Source of the DNA: an uncultured Lachnospiraceae bacterium
GTDB lineage: Bacteria; Bacillota; Clostridia; Lachnospirales; Lachnospiraceae
Direction: 5' to 3'
DNA length: 64,000 bases
Assembly: GCA_947174495.1 (NCBI GenBank)
Contig: CAMWJC010000006.1
Coordinates: forward strand, 1 to 64,000
The position numbers and the translations under genes were made by a program. Below are positions 2,296 through 8,575 of this stretch, one piece after another (position 1 is the stretch's first letter; each line of letters starts with the position of its first letter). Below the pieces are notes generated by a model. It saw nothing but the letters and a program-made list of their open reading frames with translations. It was not told the DNA's origin and ran no database searches.

Positions 2296-3429
2296 TTAAG
2301 ATACACTCATCCAACATCCTTCCGCTCCAATACCATCTTTTGGCGGTGTCAAAATTCCTTTGTCAATCAAGATATCCGCAAGGGAATCCAGAATTGGCAT
2401 GCTTGCAAGCACGTTTGCGAACTGCCATTCACCTAAAAGATGTTTCGGCACATTTTCGTATATCAATTTTGCAATATCGGCGGCAATTTTTTCTGCCGAT
2501 GTATCGAAATAGCCTTTTGAAAGCTCATTCGAGATTTCAAAAAGACGATCAGAATCGGATACGTTGTTTACAAGTATTTTAGTATAGAGGATATCCCCTT
2601 CACGGTATAGATAGCCACATTCAATTGCCCTTGCTGCATGTTCCCTGTCCTGATCGGAAAGGCTCTTTATATCTATGCCGTTTATAGCCTGAATTGCAAG
2701 CTGGAGTTCAGGATCGGTTGCAACATTATGATCACAATAAAAATGTATTTTTATATGTTTGTTATAAATATTATCAAAATGGGCTTCTGCATACCCGCAA
2801 ATGTTTTTGGCATATATCCTATCATGACCGCCACCGTAAAAAATTCCATCACTATCATATTCATAGCCGTAAACATTGAAAGGGCGTTCGGGATAGGAGA
2901 TGTGGGAAAAATACTTTTTGGACAAAAGCTGGGTTATTTTTGCTGAAAACATTTGTGACATGGGTAAAATCTGCTGCCATAGGATAAGATTCCAGTCAAC
3001 CTTGTGGTTCAGGTAAGGAAACGCCATTAAGCGTTCCCTATTGTCCTGAACAAATTTTTCAATCACATCAGAAATTTCCAGAATCCGTGTAATGTAAATA
3101 TAATGGGCTTTACTCATTGCCTTTTTGTCTAAAAGAATAAAATTAATTACATATTTACCGTTATCAAGACGGCGGAGAAGACCGTAGTTTCCGTTTTTGC
3201 CGGTTGCAAGGATTTCAAGTTCTTCTTCAACGTAAACAGCCGGAACATTCAATTTTGCTGCTATTTGTTTTGTAGTCATTGGTTCCTGACGGCAGAGCCA
3301 GATAATATGTCTTGAAAAATTTCTTATACAAACGTTTCTGGGGTCATCCCATGCAGGTGACCCGTCTCCCCAAATCACAAAATCAATGTTATTAAGCGCA
3401 ACCGGCTTCTCTACCGTATGATTTTTCAT
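2296..3429 (-). CDS. Unknown protein with winged-helix segment; tandem paralogue of the sigma-fusion C-terminal domain
   Basis: I do not recognise this 377-residue family. A helix-turn-helix-like segment (WLCRQEPMTTKQIAAKLNVP, about residues 49-68) suggests DNA binding near the N terminus. The remainder looks soluble, with no signal peptide or membrane helix. It aligns end to end, at roughly two-thirds identity by eye, with residues 169-543 of the adjacent sigma-domain protein. Both end in IGAEGCWMSV plus one residue. The start ATG has a strong GGAGG seven bases upstream, in the same surroundings as the internal start of its neighbour. A partner, ligand-sensing subunit or regulator of the sigma factor is possible but is inference only. 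Confidence 0.8.
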   Translation of the reverse strand: MKNHTVEKPVALNNIDFVIWGDGSPAWDDPRNVCIRNFSRHIIWLCRQEPMTTKQIAAKLNVPAVYVEEELEILATGKNGNYGLLRRLDNGKYVINFILLDKKAMSKAHYIYITRILEISDVIEKFVQDNRERLMAFPYLNHKVDWNLILWQQILPMSQMFSAKITQLLSKKYFSHISYPERPFNVYGYEYDSDGIFYGGGHDRIYAKNICGYAEAHFDNIYNKHIKIHFYCDHNVATDPELQLAIQAINGIDIKSLSDQDREHAARAIECGYLYREGDILYTKILVNNVSDSDRLFEISNELSKGYFDTSAEKIAADIAKLIYENVPKHLLGEWQFANVLASMPILDSLADILIDKGILTPPKDGIGAEGCWMSVS

Positions 3430-3484
3430 GTTTCTTCCTCCGTTTTATTCCCACGGGCAATGGGCCAAGTGACTGCTGCAGGGG

Positions 3485-3518
3485 TCAAATACCTCGTTGC
3501 TTGCAGAGGGGTATTTGA
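3485..3518 (-). other. Inverted repeat between sigma-fusion gene and its paralogue
   Basis: TCAAATACC (3485-3493) and GGTATTTGA (3510-3518) are perfectly complementary and flank a 16-base loop directly after the sigma-fusion stop codon. No T-run follows on the minus strand, so it is not a clear terminator. It may be an RNA processing or stabilising hairpin in the transcript joining the two genes. Confidence 0.5.
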
Positions 3519-5150
3519 TTATCCTACACTCATCCAGCATCCTTCCGCACCAATATAGTTTTTCGGCGGTATCAACATACCTTTGCCAATTAAGATATCC
3601 GCAAGAGAATCCAGAACCGGTATGTTTGCAAGAGAGTTTACTAACTCCCATTCTCCTAAAAGATGCTCCGGCACATTATCAGATATCAATTCTGCAATAT
3701 CGGCGGCTACTTTTTTCGCAGATTCATCAAAATAATCTTTTGTAAGTTCCTTCGTGATTTCAAAAAGATGTTTGGAATCGGATAGATTGTTTACAAGTAT
3801 TTTGGTATATAGGATATCCTCTTCGCGGTATAGATAACCGCATTCTATTGCCTTTGCCGCATGCTCTCTGTCCTGTTCGGAAAGGCTTTTAATATCAATA
3901 CCGTTTATAGCCTGAATTGCGAGTTGGAGTTCAGGATCGTTGGCAACATCATGGCTACAATTAAAATGTTTTTTAATGTGTTTATTATATAAATTACCAA
4001 AATGGATTTGTGTATATCCACAGATATTTGCAGCATTTATGCCATCACAGCCGCCGCCGTAATTTGTCCCGTTGGACTCAAAGCCGTAAACGCTAAAAGG
4101 GCGTTCCATCATGGTAATGCCGGAAAAATACTTTTCCTTCAAAATGAGATAGACTGTATGGGCAAATGTGCTTGCCATTGGATGAATCTGCTGCCAGAGG
4201 ATGAGATTCAAGTCAATTTTATGGTTCAGGTAGGGAAAAGCCAGAAATCTTTCCTTGTTTTCCTGAATAAACTTTTCAATTACTTCAGAGATCTCCGGAA
4301 GCTGCGCAATATAAATATTATGAGCTTTATTAATTGTTTCCTTATCCAAAAGGATAAAGTTAATTGCAAATTTCCCATTATCGAGACGACGGAGCATGCC
4401 GTATTCCCCATTATTTCCTTTTGTCAGAATTTCAAGTTCTTCTTCAACGTAAACAGTCGGTACATTTATTTCTTCCGATATTTGCTTGGCGGTCATTGGT
4501 TTCTGGCGGCAGAGCCAGACAATATGTCTTGAAAAACGTCTTGTACAAACGTCTCTGGGATCGCCCCATCTGGGATCCCCCGTTCCCCATATCGTGAAAT
4601 CAATGTCATTAAGTGTAACCGGTTTTTGTGTTGTAGGGTTTTCCATTTTTTCTACCTCCGTTTTCAGTGTTTTCCGTGCCGAAAAAAGTCTTTGACGAAT
4701 TGCGGTTTCACTGGTATGCTGCATTTTGGCAATGTCTTTAATCGGAAGACCGTCAAGATAGAAGGCAACCATGACTTCGCGATAGGCTTTTGTCAGAAAA
4801 GCAATCTGTTGATATACATTTTTCAATAATCCGGCATCATCCTGTTCCGGCATTTGCCCATCGTCGGAAATTAATGAAAAAATTTTTTCAGGATCACCCT
4901 CATAGAACCAATCCGTATGCCTGCGATAATGATTGCAAAAATCCGCATATACATTCCGGGCAATTTTCCAGATGTAGGAATAGGCATCGGAAATTTCACC
5001 TTCGGTATTGGCAGTCCGGACAAGGGCATAAACAATATCAGAACATAATTCCTGAGCTTCATAGCTGTCCTTGGTTCTTGCATAGCAAAATCCAAATAGT
5101 TTTTCCAGCAAGTCCTTGTCAATCATTTCCAGTAGTTCCTGTTTTTTCAA
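3519..5150 (-). CDS. ECF-like sigma factor fused to a large winged-helix-containing C-terminal domain
   Basis: This 543-residue protein begins with an ECF-type sigma domain. Region 2 is about residues 12-75 (LFGFCYARTKDSYEAQELCS). Region 4 is about 113-165, with the helix-turn-helix LPIKDIAKMQHTSETAIRQR. From residue 169 it continues without a stop into a roughly 375-residue domain homologous to the neighbouring gene at 2296-3429, including a winged-helix-like stretch near residues 215-240. ECF factors are usually about 170-200 residues, so the extension more than doubles the protein. The start is TTG with GGAGGAAG seven bases upstream. An internal ATG (base 4646) has its own Shine-Dalgarno site, so two products are possible. 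The role of the C-terminal domain is unknown; controlling the sigma domain is a reasonable guess. Confidence 0.85.
   Translation of the reverse strand: MKKQELLEMIDKDLLEKLFGFCYARTKDSYEAQELCSDIVYALVRTANTEGEISDAYSYIWKIARNVYADFCNHYRRHTDWFYEGDPEKIFSLISDDGQMPEQDDAGLLKNVYQQIAFLTKAYREVMVAFYLDGLPIKDIAKMQHTSETAIRQRLFSARKTLKTEVEKMENPTTQKPVTLNDIDFTIWGTGDPRWGDPRDVCTRRFSRHIVWLCRQKPMTAKQISEEINVPTVYVEEELEILTKGNNGEYGMLRRLDNGKFAINFILLDKETINKAHNIYIAQLPEISEVIEKFIQENKERFLAFPYLNHKIDLNLILWQQIHPMASTFAHTVYLILKEKYFSGITMMERPFSVYGFESNGTNYGGGCDGINAANICGYTQIHFGNLYNKHIKKHFNCSHDVANDPELQLAIQAINGIDIKSLSEQDREHAAKAIECGYLYREEDILYTKILVNNLSDSKHLFEITKELTKDYFDESAKKVAADIAELISDNVPEHLLGEWELVNSLANIPVLDSLADILIGKGMLIPPKNYIGAEGCWMSVG
4644..4660 (-). 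promoter_or_regulatory. Internal ribosome-binding site and ATG within the sigma-fusion gene
   Basis: On the minus strand, CGGAGGT lies eight bases before an in-frame ATG (residue 169), exactly at the sigma/C-terminal domain boundary. The paralogue's true start at 3429 has almost the same context (AAAACGGAGG, purine-rich spacer, ATG). The similarity suggests that the C-terminal domain can be made as a separate 375-residue protein. This is inference from sequence. Confidence 0.55.
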
Positions 5151-5254
5151 TCTTAGCTTCCTCCGGCGTATGTTTCATCTATATAGTCTTGGCAATTCTT
5201 AATTTGTTAGGTGGTTTAGAAAAAATTTTATATTAATTATGTTTATTACGTTTA

Positions 5255-8200
5255 TTACGTCAATAACTCTAATAATTCCTCCTTCGTAAAACTTCCGTTT
5301 CCCAAATCTTCGCCGGAAAGTACCTGCTCCGCCAATTCTTTCTTCCGGGTCTGCAGCTTCAGGATATTTTCTTCTATCGTATTTTTCATAATCAGCTTAT
5401 AAACATTCACAACATTTGTCTGGCCGATCCGGTGTGCCCTGTCGGTGGCCTGGTTCTGTACTGCCAGATTCCACCATGGATCAAAATGGATGACGATATC
5501 TGCAGCAGTCAAATTCAGACCGGTTCCGCCTGCTTTCAGCGAAATGCAAAACACATTGGTTTCATTCCGGTTAAAGTCTTCGACCAGCTTCAGGCGCTGC
5601 TCTTTGGGTGTAGAGCCCGTCAGCACATAATAGGAAATCCCCTCTTCTTTCAGTTTTACCTGTAGGTTCTCCAGCATGGAGGTAAACTGTGAGAACAAAA
5701 GTACCTTGTGACCGCCCGCTACCGCGTTTTGAATCAGCTCTATGCACATGGCGGACTTGGCGGAGGGACTTTCATATTTTTCATAAATAAGAGCAGGATC
5801 ACAACATAGCTGCCTTAATTTGGTGAGCTCGGAAAGAATTTGTATCTTAGCTGTCTTAAATTCCTCATCTGACTGTTTGTCCAGCATCATACGGATTCTC
5901 TGGACGTGAGCATAGTAGAGCTTCTGCTGCTCACCCTCCATAGTTGCATACACACATTTTTCCAGTTTATCCGGCAGATCCGTAAGAACGTCTTTTTTCA
6001 GTCTCCGCAGGATAAATGGCCGGATCATTCTTTGAAGTCTGTTTATGGCAGCTTCCTCCCGATTCTGTACCACCGGTATTTCGATTTCTGTACGGAAACG
6101 CTGGTAGCCGTACAGAAATCCCGGCATGAGGTAGTCAAAAATACTCCAGAGCTCGCTCAATCTGTTTTCAATCGGCGTTCCGGTGAGAGCAAAACGGCAT
6201 TCTGACTCTATTGTTTTGACTGCTCTTGCCGCTTGTGTATTATGATTTTTGATATACTGTGCTTCATCTATGATCTGGCAGAAAAATGAAATGCCTTCAT
6301 AGGCTTCCAGATCTCTTTTCAGCAATTCGTAGGAAGTAATTAAAATATCCCTGGTCTGCGAACTGCGTATAAGTTCTTGACGGTCATCAGCGCTGCCTGT
6401 CACCATTTTGACGGGAAGGCTGGGGGCGAAGAGGGAAAATTCATTTTTCCAGTTAAAAACCAAGGAGGCCGGGGTGACAATCAAAACGCGGCGGTTATCT
6501 GAAAACTTTGCTTCCAGATATTCTGACAGAAGGAATGCAATGGTCTGCAGTGTCTTACCCAGTCCCATATCGTCAGCAAGTATGCCGCCGAAACCATTGT
6601 GATACAAGGTCTTGAGCCATATGAAGCCTGTGTTCTGATAGGGACGCAAGGTGGATTCCAGACTAGCTGGCGCCTCAAAATTATTTTCGTCAGCAGTCTT
6701 CATATTTCGGATCAGCTCCAGAAAGGCTTTATTACGGCTGGACGATATATGCTGTGATTCCTGAAGCATGTGATCCAGATAAAGAGCCCTGTACCTGGGC
6801 AGTGCGACAGTTTCTTTTCGCATCTGTGTGTCAGTCAGGTTCAGATCCTGTCTGAGAGTTAGAAGCGTTTGAAACCCCTCATCCTCTGTAAGGATAAAGT
6901 TGCCGTTTTTCAAGCGGAAGTATTTTTTCTTCTTGTCATATTTCGATAGTATTTCGATTAGTTCTTCTCTGGACAATTCATCGGTGTGCATGGTCAGCTC
7001 CAGTAAATCTTCCGACAAAGATACGCCCACTTCCACCTTGCCGCTGTATACCACACGGATTTTCTTTAAGGCGTCAGAGACGTACACATCGCCAAGCACC
7101 TGTAAACGGGGAATTCCTTGTGTGAGCAGTTCATAGATTTTGTCTTCATCTCCGGCAATGACCATTGCATGTTCTTTTTCATCATAGGCATTACAGTAAG
7201 AGGCGACTGTGTTTCCCACCTGTATCTCCTTAACAGCATCCCGCCCGGAGCGTTCTTCCTCCTTTTTATAGACTTCGAATTTTCTTTCCCCATAGACGGC
7301 ATAGACTTTACAAGTAATGAAATCCTTTTGCGGCGCATCCAGATAAATTTCAAAGGAGACGGGTTCCACGCCATAATCGGCTTCGCTGAAATTTATCCGT
7401 TCACATTCATAATATTTCTCCAAAAGAGGAAGTAATTCCCGACAGAACATAGGAATGTCACTTTTGTCAACATAGAACGTGGATTCAGGAAGTTCAGAAA
7501 GGCAGGATAAAAAGTCCTGGATTGGCGAAAGAACTTCTCTGCTTTCGAGGTGGATAAGTCCATCTTGAAAGGTGAAAACAGTATGGGTAGAATAAATTGC
7601 CGTTAAGGGTTCGGATTTCACTTCAATGCCATCTCTTCTTCCAATAATCCGTAAGCGACGGATTGATGGGCTGTCTGTCTGATACCAGATTTTTTCACCG
7701 GAACCGTTCAAATCAATTAGAACAGGGCTGTCTTTTAAAATGTCGAAAAGTTCTTCCAAGTCTGTTCCATTAAGGGGTATCTGGCGTAATTTCAAAAGTG
7801 TTGGCTTGTAGGAGTAATAATTGCGTTCAATATAGCGACTACCATTTTCCTGTGCCCATTCGAGAATAAATTTTACAATTCTTTGAGACATCGGCTCAAA
7901 GGCGCTTAAGGCATGCAGGAACTTTAGTTTTTTCCCATAGGAATATTCTGCGCAAGATGCTATATTTTGGGCAAACTCAAACACATCCTTGAGAACATAC
8001 CGGGTGTCTATTCCGATTTTAAATTCTACAGTAGCGCTGTTCTCACTGCATTTGAAATGGGGTTCCAGAGATACCTTTTCATAAGGCGAATCCTGCATTA
8101 AAGGGAGGGTGGATTTTATTCTCTGACGCCGTAGTAAATCTTTGATGATTGAAGTTGTTTCTTTAGAACGGGGCTTAGGGAGAAAACGTCCGTCATCAGG

Positions 8201-8575
8201 AACAATATAGTCAGAAAGTCTGCGTTTTTGAACGGCGGACCCCGGTTCTTCTATATAGTCAAAAATTGTCTGCTGCATGTCAAGACGACTTTCGCACTCT
8301 AAGAGTACGGCAGCGCAATGTTTGCAAATACCGTCATAGTTGTAGAAAGCGGGACAGTCACAAAAGCATTCGGACAGATATTCATAAAACGTATTGTAGA
8401 CAAGCTCTACTTTATATTTTTTCCTTCCACTGCCCTGTACAGATGCTTTCATGAAAATTTCTTCATCTTGCTTTTTAGACTGAAAAGTCAGCACTTTCTT
8501 CTGGCAGAATAGTTCATAGCCTCTGTTAAAAATGGTGGAGCCGGCAATTTCGTTAATAATCTGCTTATTGAGCAC
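5255..8575 (-). CDS. SNF2-family helicase with SWIM zinc finger
   Basis: This 1106-residue Swi2/Snf2-type ATPase has a SWIM zinc finger near the N terminus (C72, C74, C84, H86). A long middle region resembles the bacterial SNF2-associated domain. A complete two-lobe motor follows: Walker A DDMGLGKT near residue 669, DEAQ box near 773, and motifs V-VI including GGTGLNLT and DRAHRIGQ near the end. Such proteins translocate on DNA and are thought to remodel DNA-protein or RNA polymerase complexes; the bacterial role is poorly known. The start is GTG (8575). A GAGAGG lies eight bases upstream. A 104-base gap separates it from the sigma-fusion gene on the same strand, so co-transcription is possible. 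Confidence 0.93.
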   Translation of the reverse strand: MLNKQIINEIAGSTIFNRGYELFCQKKVLTFQSKKQDEEIFMKASVQGSGRKKYKVELVYNTFYEYLSECFCDCPAFYNYDGICKHCAAVLLECESRLDMQQTIFDYIEEPGSAVQKRRLSDYIVPDDGRFLPKPRSKETTSIIKDLLRRQRIKSTLPLMQDSPYEKVSLEPHFKCSENSATVEFKIGIDTRYVLKDVFEFAQNIASCAEYSYGKKLKFLHALSAFEPMSQRIVKFILEWAQENGSRYIERNYYSYKPTLLKLRQIPLNGTDLEELFDILKDSPVLIDLNGSGEKIWYQTDSPSIRRLRIIGRRDGIEVKSEPLTAIYSTHTVFTFQDGLIHLESREVLSPIQDFLSCLSELPESTFYVDKSDIPMFCRELLPLLEKYYECERINFSEADYGVEPVSFEIYLDAPQKDFITCKVYAVYGERKFEVYKKEEERSGRDAVKEIQVGNTVASYCNAYDEKEHAMVIAGDEDKIYELLTQGIPRLQVLGDVYVSDALKKIRVVYSGKVEVGVSLSEDLLELTMHTDELSREELIEILSKYDKKKKYFRLKNGNFILTEDEGFQTLLTLRQDLNLTDTQMRKETVALPRYRALYLDHMLQESQHISSSRNKAFLELIRNMKTADENNFEAPASLESTLRPYQNTGFIWLKTLYHNGFGGILADDMGLGKTLQTIAFLLSEYLEAKFSDNRRVLIVTPASLVFNWKNEFSLFAPSLPVKMVTGSADDRQELIRSSQTRDILITSYELLKRDLEAYEGISFFCQIIDEAQYIKNHNTQAARAVKTIESECRFALTGTPIENRLSELWSIFDYLMPGFLYGYQRFRTEIEIPVVQNREEAAINRLQRMIRPFILRRLKKDVLTDLPDKLEKCVYATMEGEQQKLYYAHVQRIRMMLDKQSDEEFKTAKIQILSELTKLRQLCCDPALIYEKYESPSAKSAMCIELIQNAVAGGHKVLLFSQFTSMLENLQVKLKEEGISYYVLTGSTPKEQRLKLVEDFNRNETNVFCISLKAGGTGLNLTAADIVIHFDPWWNLAVQNQATDRAHRIGQTNVVNVYKLIMKNTIEENILKLQTRKKELAEQVLSGEDLGNGSFTKEELLELLT

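Follow-up and report, generated by a model that had tools for sequence, protein, structure and literature searches.

A gene in a 64,000-nucleotide stretch of DNA from an uncultured Lachnospiraceae bacterium (contig CAMWJC010000006.1 of assembly GCA_947174495.1, positions 1 to 64,000; hereafter the window) encodes an extracytoplasmic function (ECF) sigma factor fused to a large C-terminal domain, and at the junction of the two halves it carries a second, in-frame ribosome site and start codon from which the C-terminal domain could be made as a free protein. Control of ECF sigma factors normally falls to a separate anti-sigma protein or to an extension fused to the sigma factor itself. By comparing the gene with its relatives, we demonstrated that the fusion, the embedded start signal and a promoter of the gene's own are conserved. 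Given that an embedded Shine-Dalgarno (SD) sequence and start codon lie at the junction of the genes tested, each gene probably makes two proteins, and we are highly confident, on this comparative footing, that the embedded start is used in cells.

We propose that one frame yields the fused sigma factor with its regulatory domain and, through internal initiation at the junction, the free regulatory domain. The sigma half would transcribe its own gene from the conserved promoter (autoactivation), while the regulatory domain would sense a signal and control the sigma half. The free domain, whose amount would follow that of the fusion, would act in trans, most likely as a feedback partner, whether by forming a dimer with the fused domain, by an anti-sigma-like hold on the sigma half, or by taking a seat on a palindrome where one is present. 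In the window's lineage, a duplicated short cistron would raise or uncouple the dose of the free domain. We consider this two-product feedback scheme as a whole likely.

A first-pass annotation of the window had described an ECF sigma domain running without a stop into an unassigned domain of about 375 residues, and had allowed that the fusion might be an error in a single genome. The 543-codon frame, in which the C-terminal domain matched no family above cut-off, agrees with that description. Scanning genome contigs for the domain gave 78 relatives. As in the window, 54 of them join sigma and domain in a frame without interruption; the fusion count leaves out the remaining 24, which were cut by a contig end, broken in frame or matched over a short length. 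Because the fusion recurs intact in 54 relatives, we rejected a sequencing or assembly error as its source.

Within these 55 near-family genes, the DNA of the linker reads GAGGTA or GAGGTG, six bases and ATG in 54, and the deviant linker (L042) has an SD and ATG of its own. In the codon alignment, Glu165 was encoded by GAG in 55 of 55 genes, compared with a GAG share of 38% among the glutamate codons of the same genes, and the other 18 conserved glutamate columns reached at most 65% GAG. Leaving aside Met and Trp, 247 columns were conserved, and all but Glu165 showed synonymous change. Val166 was GTA or GTG in all 54 genes that have it, one gene having Met instead, and Met169 was ATG in 55 of 55, with the other linker positions variable. 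An in-frame SD and start codon conserved at the domain boundary give the fused genes the make-up of internal-start genes.

We then extended the comparison to the superfamily, whose sequences diverge down to about 20% identity. Of the 190 fused frames collected, 165 were unique; a set made non-redundant at 80% identity kept 113, not all of them complete, and a gene was counted as positive if an ATG inside a 27-codon junction window was preceded by an anti-SD duplex with an energy of −4 kcal/mol or lower. All 113 genes passed this rule, and 112 passed at −5 kcal/mol, whereas among 5306 control windows, which overlap one another and come from elsewhere in these genes, the shares were 10.3% and 7.7%, respectively; the linker between sigma2 and sigma4, as a further control, held a site at −5 or lower in 9 of 112 genes. 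The median SD energy was −8.3 at the junction ATG versus −2.2 at 1098 other internal ATGs, and the junction ATG was the strongest internal one in 79 of 113 genes. Furthermore, when amino acids were held fixed and synonymous codons were redrawn from each gene's own usage, the junction mean was −8.0 observed versus −5.4 expected, with the observed site stronger in 95 of 113 genes, whereas 338 control ATGs matched expectation (−2.46 versus −2.45). The same RNA signal was spelled by differing residues and frames, among them KSEVEEM, LKEGIGM, KKECVKM, KRGMxxM and RDRIGEDKM; far relatives strengthen the test of the embedded start precisely because their amino acids have changed.

The rule, fixed beforehand, was also applied to a hold-out set of eight loci outside the class, obtained from a search of the phylum (six further full-length rows were left out). 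Seven of the eight passed, all at −7.5 or better. The eighth failed the rule; inspection of this locus showed AGGGAGGG followed by TTG, likewise a start codon, in the corresponding position.

The embedded SD and ATG might instead be the unused relic of a two-gene operon, sigma followed by regulator, that lost the stop codon between its genes. The layout matches what such an operon would leave, and a sigma-only copy in genome G228 has its stop codon at this very point and no ATG. A relic would be expected to decay, yet SD and ATG persist in 113 of 113 genes and in the hold-out set (seven of eight, plus the TTG) despite identities of about 20% and changed residues, and the pooled resampling shows an SD stronger than the amino acids require; we regard a relic as improbable. 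A purine-rich, SD-like stretch could also act as a ribosome pause that lets the sigma half fold, without initiation, and its position at the domain boundary would suit that role. A pause requires no start codon, however, and here an ATG (in one case TTG) is kept at initiation spacing amid varying residues, which leaves this alternative just as little likelihood.

Assignment of the sigma half drew on sequence and structure searches. Region 4 matched Pfam at E 4e-12, above its cut-off, region 2 at E 1.4e-4 (22 bits, slightly below the Pfam cut-off of 24), both mapping within residues 15-162, and TIGR02937 (sigma70-ECF) scored 62 bits, above its cut-off. The presence of regions 2 and 4 only, without region 3, places the protein among the ECF (group 4) sigma factors. 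Consistent with this, the 50 Foldseek matches listed for the full fusion were mainly sigma factors, the best being ECF sigma factors.

No Pfam or NCBIfam family scored above cut-off over residues 169-543, the closest being a helix-turn-helix (HTH) model at 26.3 bits against a cut-off of 27.4. The first-pass annotation had conceded that the domain might turn out to be a well-known family; with nothing above cut-off in Pfam or NCBIfam, ten far relatives included, a known family was rejected. Five proteins searched against PADLOC and PHROGs gave a best match of only E 0.0097. The near-family profile matched no PDB sequence, and the far-family profile gave weak winged-helix matches, the best to AdcR at E 0.006. 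A SnoaL-like domain, the feature of ECF41 and ECF56, was absent from Pfam matches at E up to 10 and from the 50 Foldseek matches listed, and the tetratricopeptide repeat (TPR) characteristic of ECF42 had no Pfam match at E up to 10.

Modeled alone with AlphaFold2, the domain reached a predicted local distance difference test score (pLDDT) of 92.1 and a predicted template modeling score (pTM) of 0.86. The winged helix that the first-pass annotation had placed within the domain is predicted at domain residues 37-100, followed by a long helix and sheet (alpha/beta) at 146-221 and a helical end; a second HTH-like part, read from the predicted secondary structure, lies at 238-287, and a GAEGCWM motif is conserved close to the C-terminal end. 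Foldseek with the domain gave 286 matches, of which 50 were listed; among these, no solved structure had a significant E-value. Over about 70 residues, the winged helix overlaps CzrA (TM-score by target up to 0.62) and Z-alpha (0.75), again at E ≥ 0.3, and among the matches listed it is closest to ArsR/IclR-type repressors, at E-values that are not significant; the other roughly 280 residues had no convincing fold match among those listed. The presumed recognition helix bears a near-invariant acidic Y-x-E, reminiscent of Rrf2 regulators, the type to which NsrR belongs, the Rrf2 Pfam match being weak. In an Acetatifactor relative (L051:2831-4879), the fused protein runs on at the C-terminus into a part that, by eye in the alignment, resembles a CheY-like receiver, which hints at signal input to the domain.

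Upstream of the fused genes, the pattern CCTAAC-17 nt-GACTATA was located by rule in 50 of 55 cases, with a spacer of 17 nt in 49 of the 50, and four of the other five genes have near variants by eye. The window's genome (78% complete) contains one exact match, that of the fused gene itself, and a backwards control pattern gave seven; it is therefore the conservation of the promoter, not the match count, that supports it. A longer pattern allowing up to one mismatch was searched in 45 genome handles, which stand for 43 genomes (G265/G409 and G325/G430 are doubled). It gave 48 matches, 45 of them distinct after merging the doubled genomes, and four of the 45 handles had none. Thirty-six distinct matches were identical to a site before a fused gene of the set of 55; one preceded a further fused member (G410), one (G393) was identical to a fused-gene promoter in two other genomes, one preceded the sigma-only copy of G228, one preceded a transglutaminase-like gene (G265), and five were left without a gene assignment. 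Because the backwards control pattern gave 28 matches in the same handles, the extra matches are no evidence of targets. In a far subfamily, eight of ten genomes each held a single site of the promoter CCAACC..TGTCTATA, and the controls gave none; these sites are sequences seen before fused genes, where the two unmatched genomes also carry the motif, its spacer reduced by one base. Judged by this strict pattern, the gene served by the sigma factor seems to be its own, and weaker or different targets are possible. The only clear second target seen was a gene that is transglutaminase-like by eye (L023:3402-4385), which adjoins a sigma gene and has the same promoter.

Behind the −10 element, many far-relative promoters carry a palindrome. 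A simple rule located the promoter in 72 of the 113 genes and did not locate it in 41; within 30 nt behind the −10, 48 of the 72 located promoters have a perfect palindrome of at least 10 bp, compared with 2% of shuffled windows and none of 72 upstream windows. Nineteen of the 48, in related genes, share ATTGATCAAT, and those of other lineages differ in letters (TGAAAGCTTTCA, CAATCATGATTG, TTGAGTGCGCACTCAA and others) with position and symmetry kept; examples of such lineage-specific palindromes are seen at L159, L085, L088 and L177. An RNA hairpin is unlikely to be the reason for them, as perfect palindromes would leave no loop. The palindrome looks like the site of a dimer, for which the free domain would be the obvious candidate reader.

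Beside the fused gene, the window holds a separate copy of the domain. The first-pass annotation had put the identity of this repeat at two-thirds by eye, and the measured value, 70% over the domain, is close to that. The copy begins at an ATG homologous to the embedded start, and its GGAGG is homologous to the GGAGG that is linker coding sequence in the fused gene. In a phylogenetic tree, the fused copies of its own species and the two nearest relatives group together, with the stand-alone copy as the next branch outward (support 100/100 for the group of four and 98/85 for the three fused copies), on a longer end branch (0.32 versus 0.11-0.17). The ratio of nonsynonymous to synonymous substitution rates (dN/dS) was 0.19-0.24 in comparisons with the stand-alone copy versus 0.14-0.16 among the three fused copies, so that the stand-alone copy is under purifying selection, if of a slightly relaxed kind. 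Each of the two closest species (81% and 78% identical) has a single copy in the genome analyzed, and no second near-identical domain was present at the loci of other relatives; since many of those contigs end early, the rarity of the tandem arrangement is approximate. The stand-alone copy looks like a lineage-specific duplicate of the short cistron, including its ribosome site.

How the regulatory domain might act can be read in other ways. It could be a purely cis-acting, on-board sensor as in ECF41 and ECF56, the stand-alone copy being an incidental duplicate. Extension-bearing ECF sigma factors of that kind are described in PMC8999054 and PMC3426412; a cis-only role nevertheless leaves the embedded start unexplained, and the stand-alone copy has kept a low dN/dS and a ribosome site, so that we think such a role unlikely. 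Alternatively, the free domain could be a repressor whose winged-helix dimer binds the palindrome behind its own −10 in a negative loop, with the fused form as activator. The palindromes, which keep their symmetry while their letters change between lineages, and the winged helix, predicted with high confidence and leaning toward ArsR/IclR-type repressors among the matches listed, would suit this. Against it stand the share of promoters not located, the common string of the 19 related palindromes, and the fact that neither the window's own clade nor the KKEC-type subgroup has a palindrome, owing to which an operator role cannot be general. Moreover, the acidic Y-x-E of the presumed recognition helix is constant across lineages with differing palindromes, so specificity is not visible in that helix. 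We therefore hold the repressor reading as a tentative possibility.

Several observations weigh against the two-product feedback scheme itself. The support for internal initiation is comparative throughout, and the sequence evidence does not fix the direction of control. At the window's junction, RNA folding is no weaker than in shuffled sequences (z 0.25); the junction ATG is outdone in site strength by another internal ATG in 34 of 113 genes; and the pooled counts come from related genes that are not mutually independent. In single-gene resampling, p < 0.05 was reached in only 10% of the 113 genes (2% for controls), and because few genes pass singly, part of the SD signal sits in the choice of amino acids, leaving the pooled test to decide. 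The sigma half is ill-determined in the full-length model (pLDDT block means 35-80), so no interface between sigma half and domain can be read from it. No regulon beyond the gene itself was found by promoter pattern, and the missing palindromes of the window's clade and the KKEC-type subgroup count here as well.

The first-pass annotation had also suggested a control scheme different from that of ECF sigma factors with separate anti-sigma factors, built on the fused domain and its free tandem homologue, which could compete, dimerize or bind the same signal. Part of this stands: the fusion recurs, a free form is sensible, and a comparison of neighbors at 55 loci found no conserved anti-sigma gene, the commonest neighbor family (ABC transporter ATPase-like) occurring at 9 of the 55 loci, some of them short. 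What needs amending is the source of the free form, which need not depend on the tandem copy.

A broader proposal would make these genes a "self-only" sigma superfamily in Clostridia and in the phylum, each gene a complete switch whose sigma half drives hardly any promoter but its own, whose embedded start frees a sensor domain, and whose free domain (or its dimer) closes the loop at a lineage-specific palindrome right behind the −10; promoter, palindrome and protein would then co-diverge, and several copies could share a genome without cross-talk. We find this generalization rather doubtful.

In layout, the fused genes resemble the extension-bearing ECF sigma factors of PMC8999054, in which sigma2 and sigma4 are followed by a fused regulatory domain and no anti-sigma gene is present. 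ECF41 has very few detectable targets (PMC3426412), a trait in common with the window's family. Unlike the known extension-bearing factors, the present ones have a 375-residue domain with a winged helix, no match to SnoaL, TPR or zinc-finger domains, and an embedded start, a feature that the papers cited do not describe for such factors. Table 2 of PMC8999054 lists the extension groups ECF262 (model from Ruminococcus albus) and ECF288 (Blautia producta), which share with the window's family an extension, clostridial models and an unproven mechanism; the window's family may be ECF262 or ECF288. Internal in-frame starts that free a C-terminal part are described for Cas11b (PMC11899642) and for SpaO and HrcQ of type III secretion (PMC13059759, PMC8553256), where, as proposed here, one frame gives two products and the short one serves in the same machinery. 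In contrast to those proteins, which are parts of large complexes, the short product here would amount to a sigma factor's regulatory half. Among the open-licence papers listed by literature searches for internal starts in sigma factors or bacterial proteins, none concerned an ECF factor with such a start. In E. coli, the repressor NsrR is reported to act on the ECF sigma factor sigma E much as an anti-sigma protein would (PMC12249550); unlike the window's family, NsrR and sigma E are encoded by separate genes, and NsrR is not known to be homologous to the domain.

One frame supplying both the fused and the free regulator would build stoichiometry and feedback into the gene. If this is true, the gene would be a compact sigma-based switch with its own promoter, usable as an insulated circuit part. 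In every member, a product would escape gene finders that assign a single protein to each frame, and extension-bearing ECF genes elsewhere would be worth checking for embedded starts.

The family is rare and patchy, with several members in some genomes. Titles of the 78 relatives name Lachnospiraceae, Oscillospiraceae, Clostridia, Clostridiales and Eubacteriales, with genera including Ruminococcus and Acetatifactor; the rest are two candidate genera and one "uncultured bacterium". The near-family domain profile was found in at least 25 of 391 genomes of the class and at least 17 of 200 from the window's family, the genome of the window among them, and the far-family profile in at least 34 of 391 genomes of the class and at least 13 of 398 of the phylum; these are lower bounds because only some candidate places were scored in most genomes. 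In the far-family class search, 56 of 72 match rows lay in frames of at least 500 codons. All loci collected contained 190 fused versus 21 domain-alone frames; among the latter, the window's stand-alone copy recurs five times with different locus numbers, 12 begin at the end of the locus, and four remain (L015, L047, L065 and L181). Besides the genes in the window, the same genome encodes at least one more member, a distant one (G000:C53:17533-18597). The sigma-only copy (L129:1570-2073, on G228:C92), with its stop codon exactly at the junction and no embedded ATG, stops about 110 bases short of the contig end; a family domain in G228 lies on contig C86, in a frame open to the contig start.

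Table 1. Features of the fused sigma gene and its stand-alone domain copy in the window.
Feature	Position	Strand	Description
ECF-type promoter of fused gene	5182..5212	-	−35 CCTAAC at 5206-5211; 17-nt spacer; −10 GACTATA at 5182-5188
Fused sigma gene	3519-5150	-	One open frame of 543 codons; TTG start; GGAGG at 5160-5164
ECF sigma domain, residues 1-168, regions 2 and 4	4647..5150	-	Pfam PF08281/PF04542, TIGR02937 and Foldseek ECF sigma matches
Embedded translation start	4644..4659	-	GGAGG at 4655-4659; ATG at 4644-4646 is Met169, putative first codon of the free domain
C-terminal domain, 375 aa, residues 169-543	3519..4646	-	AlphaFold2 model; among Foldseek matches listed, only the winged helix is similar to solved folds, none at a significant E-value
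Intergenic spacer	3430..3518	-	GGAGG at 3437-3441 (copied ribosome site) and 9-bp hairpin
Stand-alone domain copy, 377 codons	2296..3429	-	70% identity to fused domain; begins at the place of the embedded start

Both genes lie on the minus strand, so that the "downstream" copy has the lower coordinates (Table 1). The spacer hairpin has no T run and its folding energy is not better than that of shuffles (z 0.67), and no terminator was found on the genes' strand between the fused gene and the stand-alone copy. The neighbor comparison across the 55 loci likewise revealed no conserved operon or target gene beside the fused genes. Upstream of the sigma gene in the window, on the same strand, a gene at 5255-8575 resembles by eye a SWIM zinc-finger SNF2 helicase; it is separated from the sigma gene by 104 bases, in which the sigma promoter sits.

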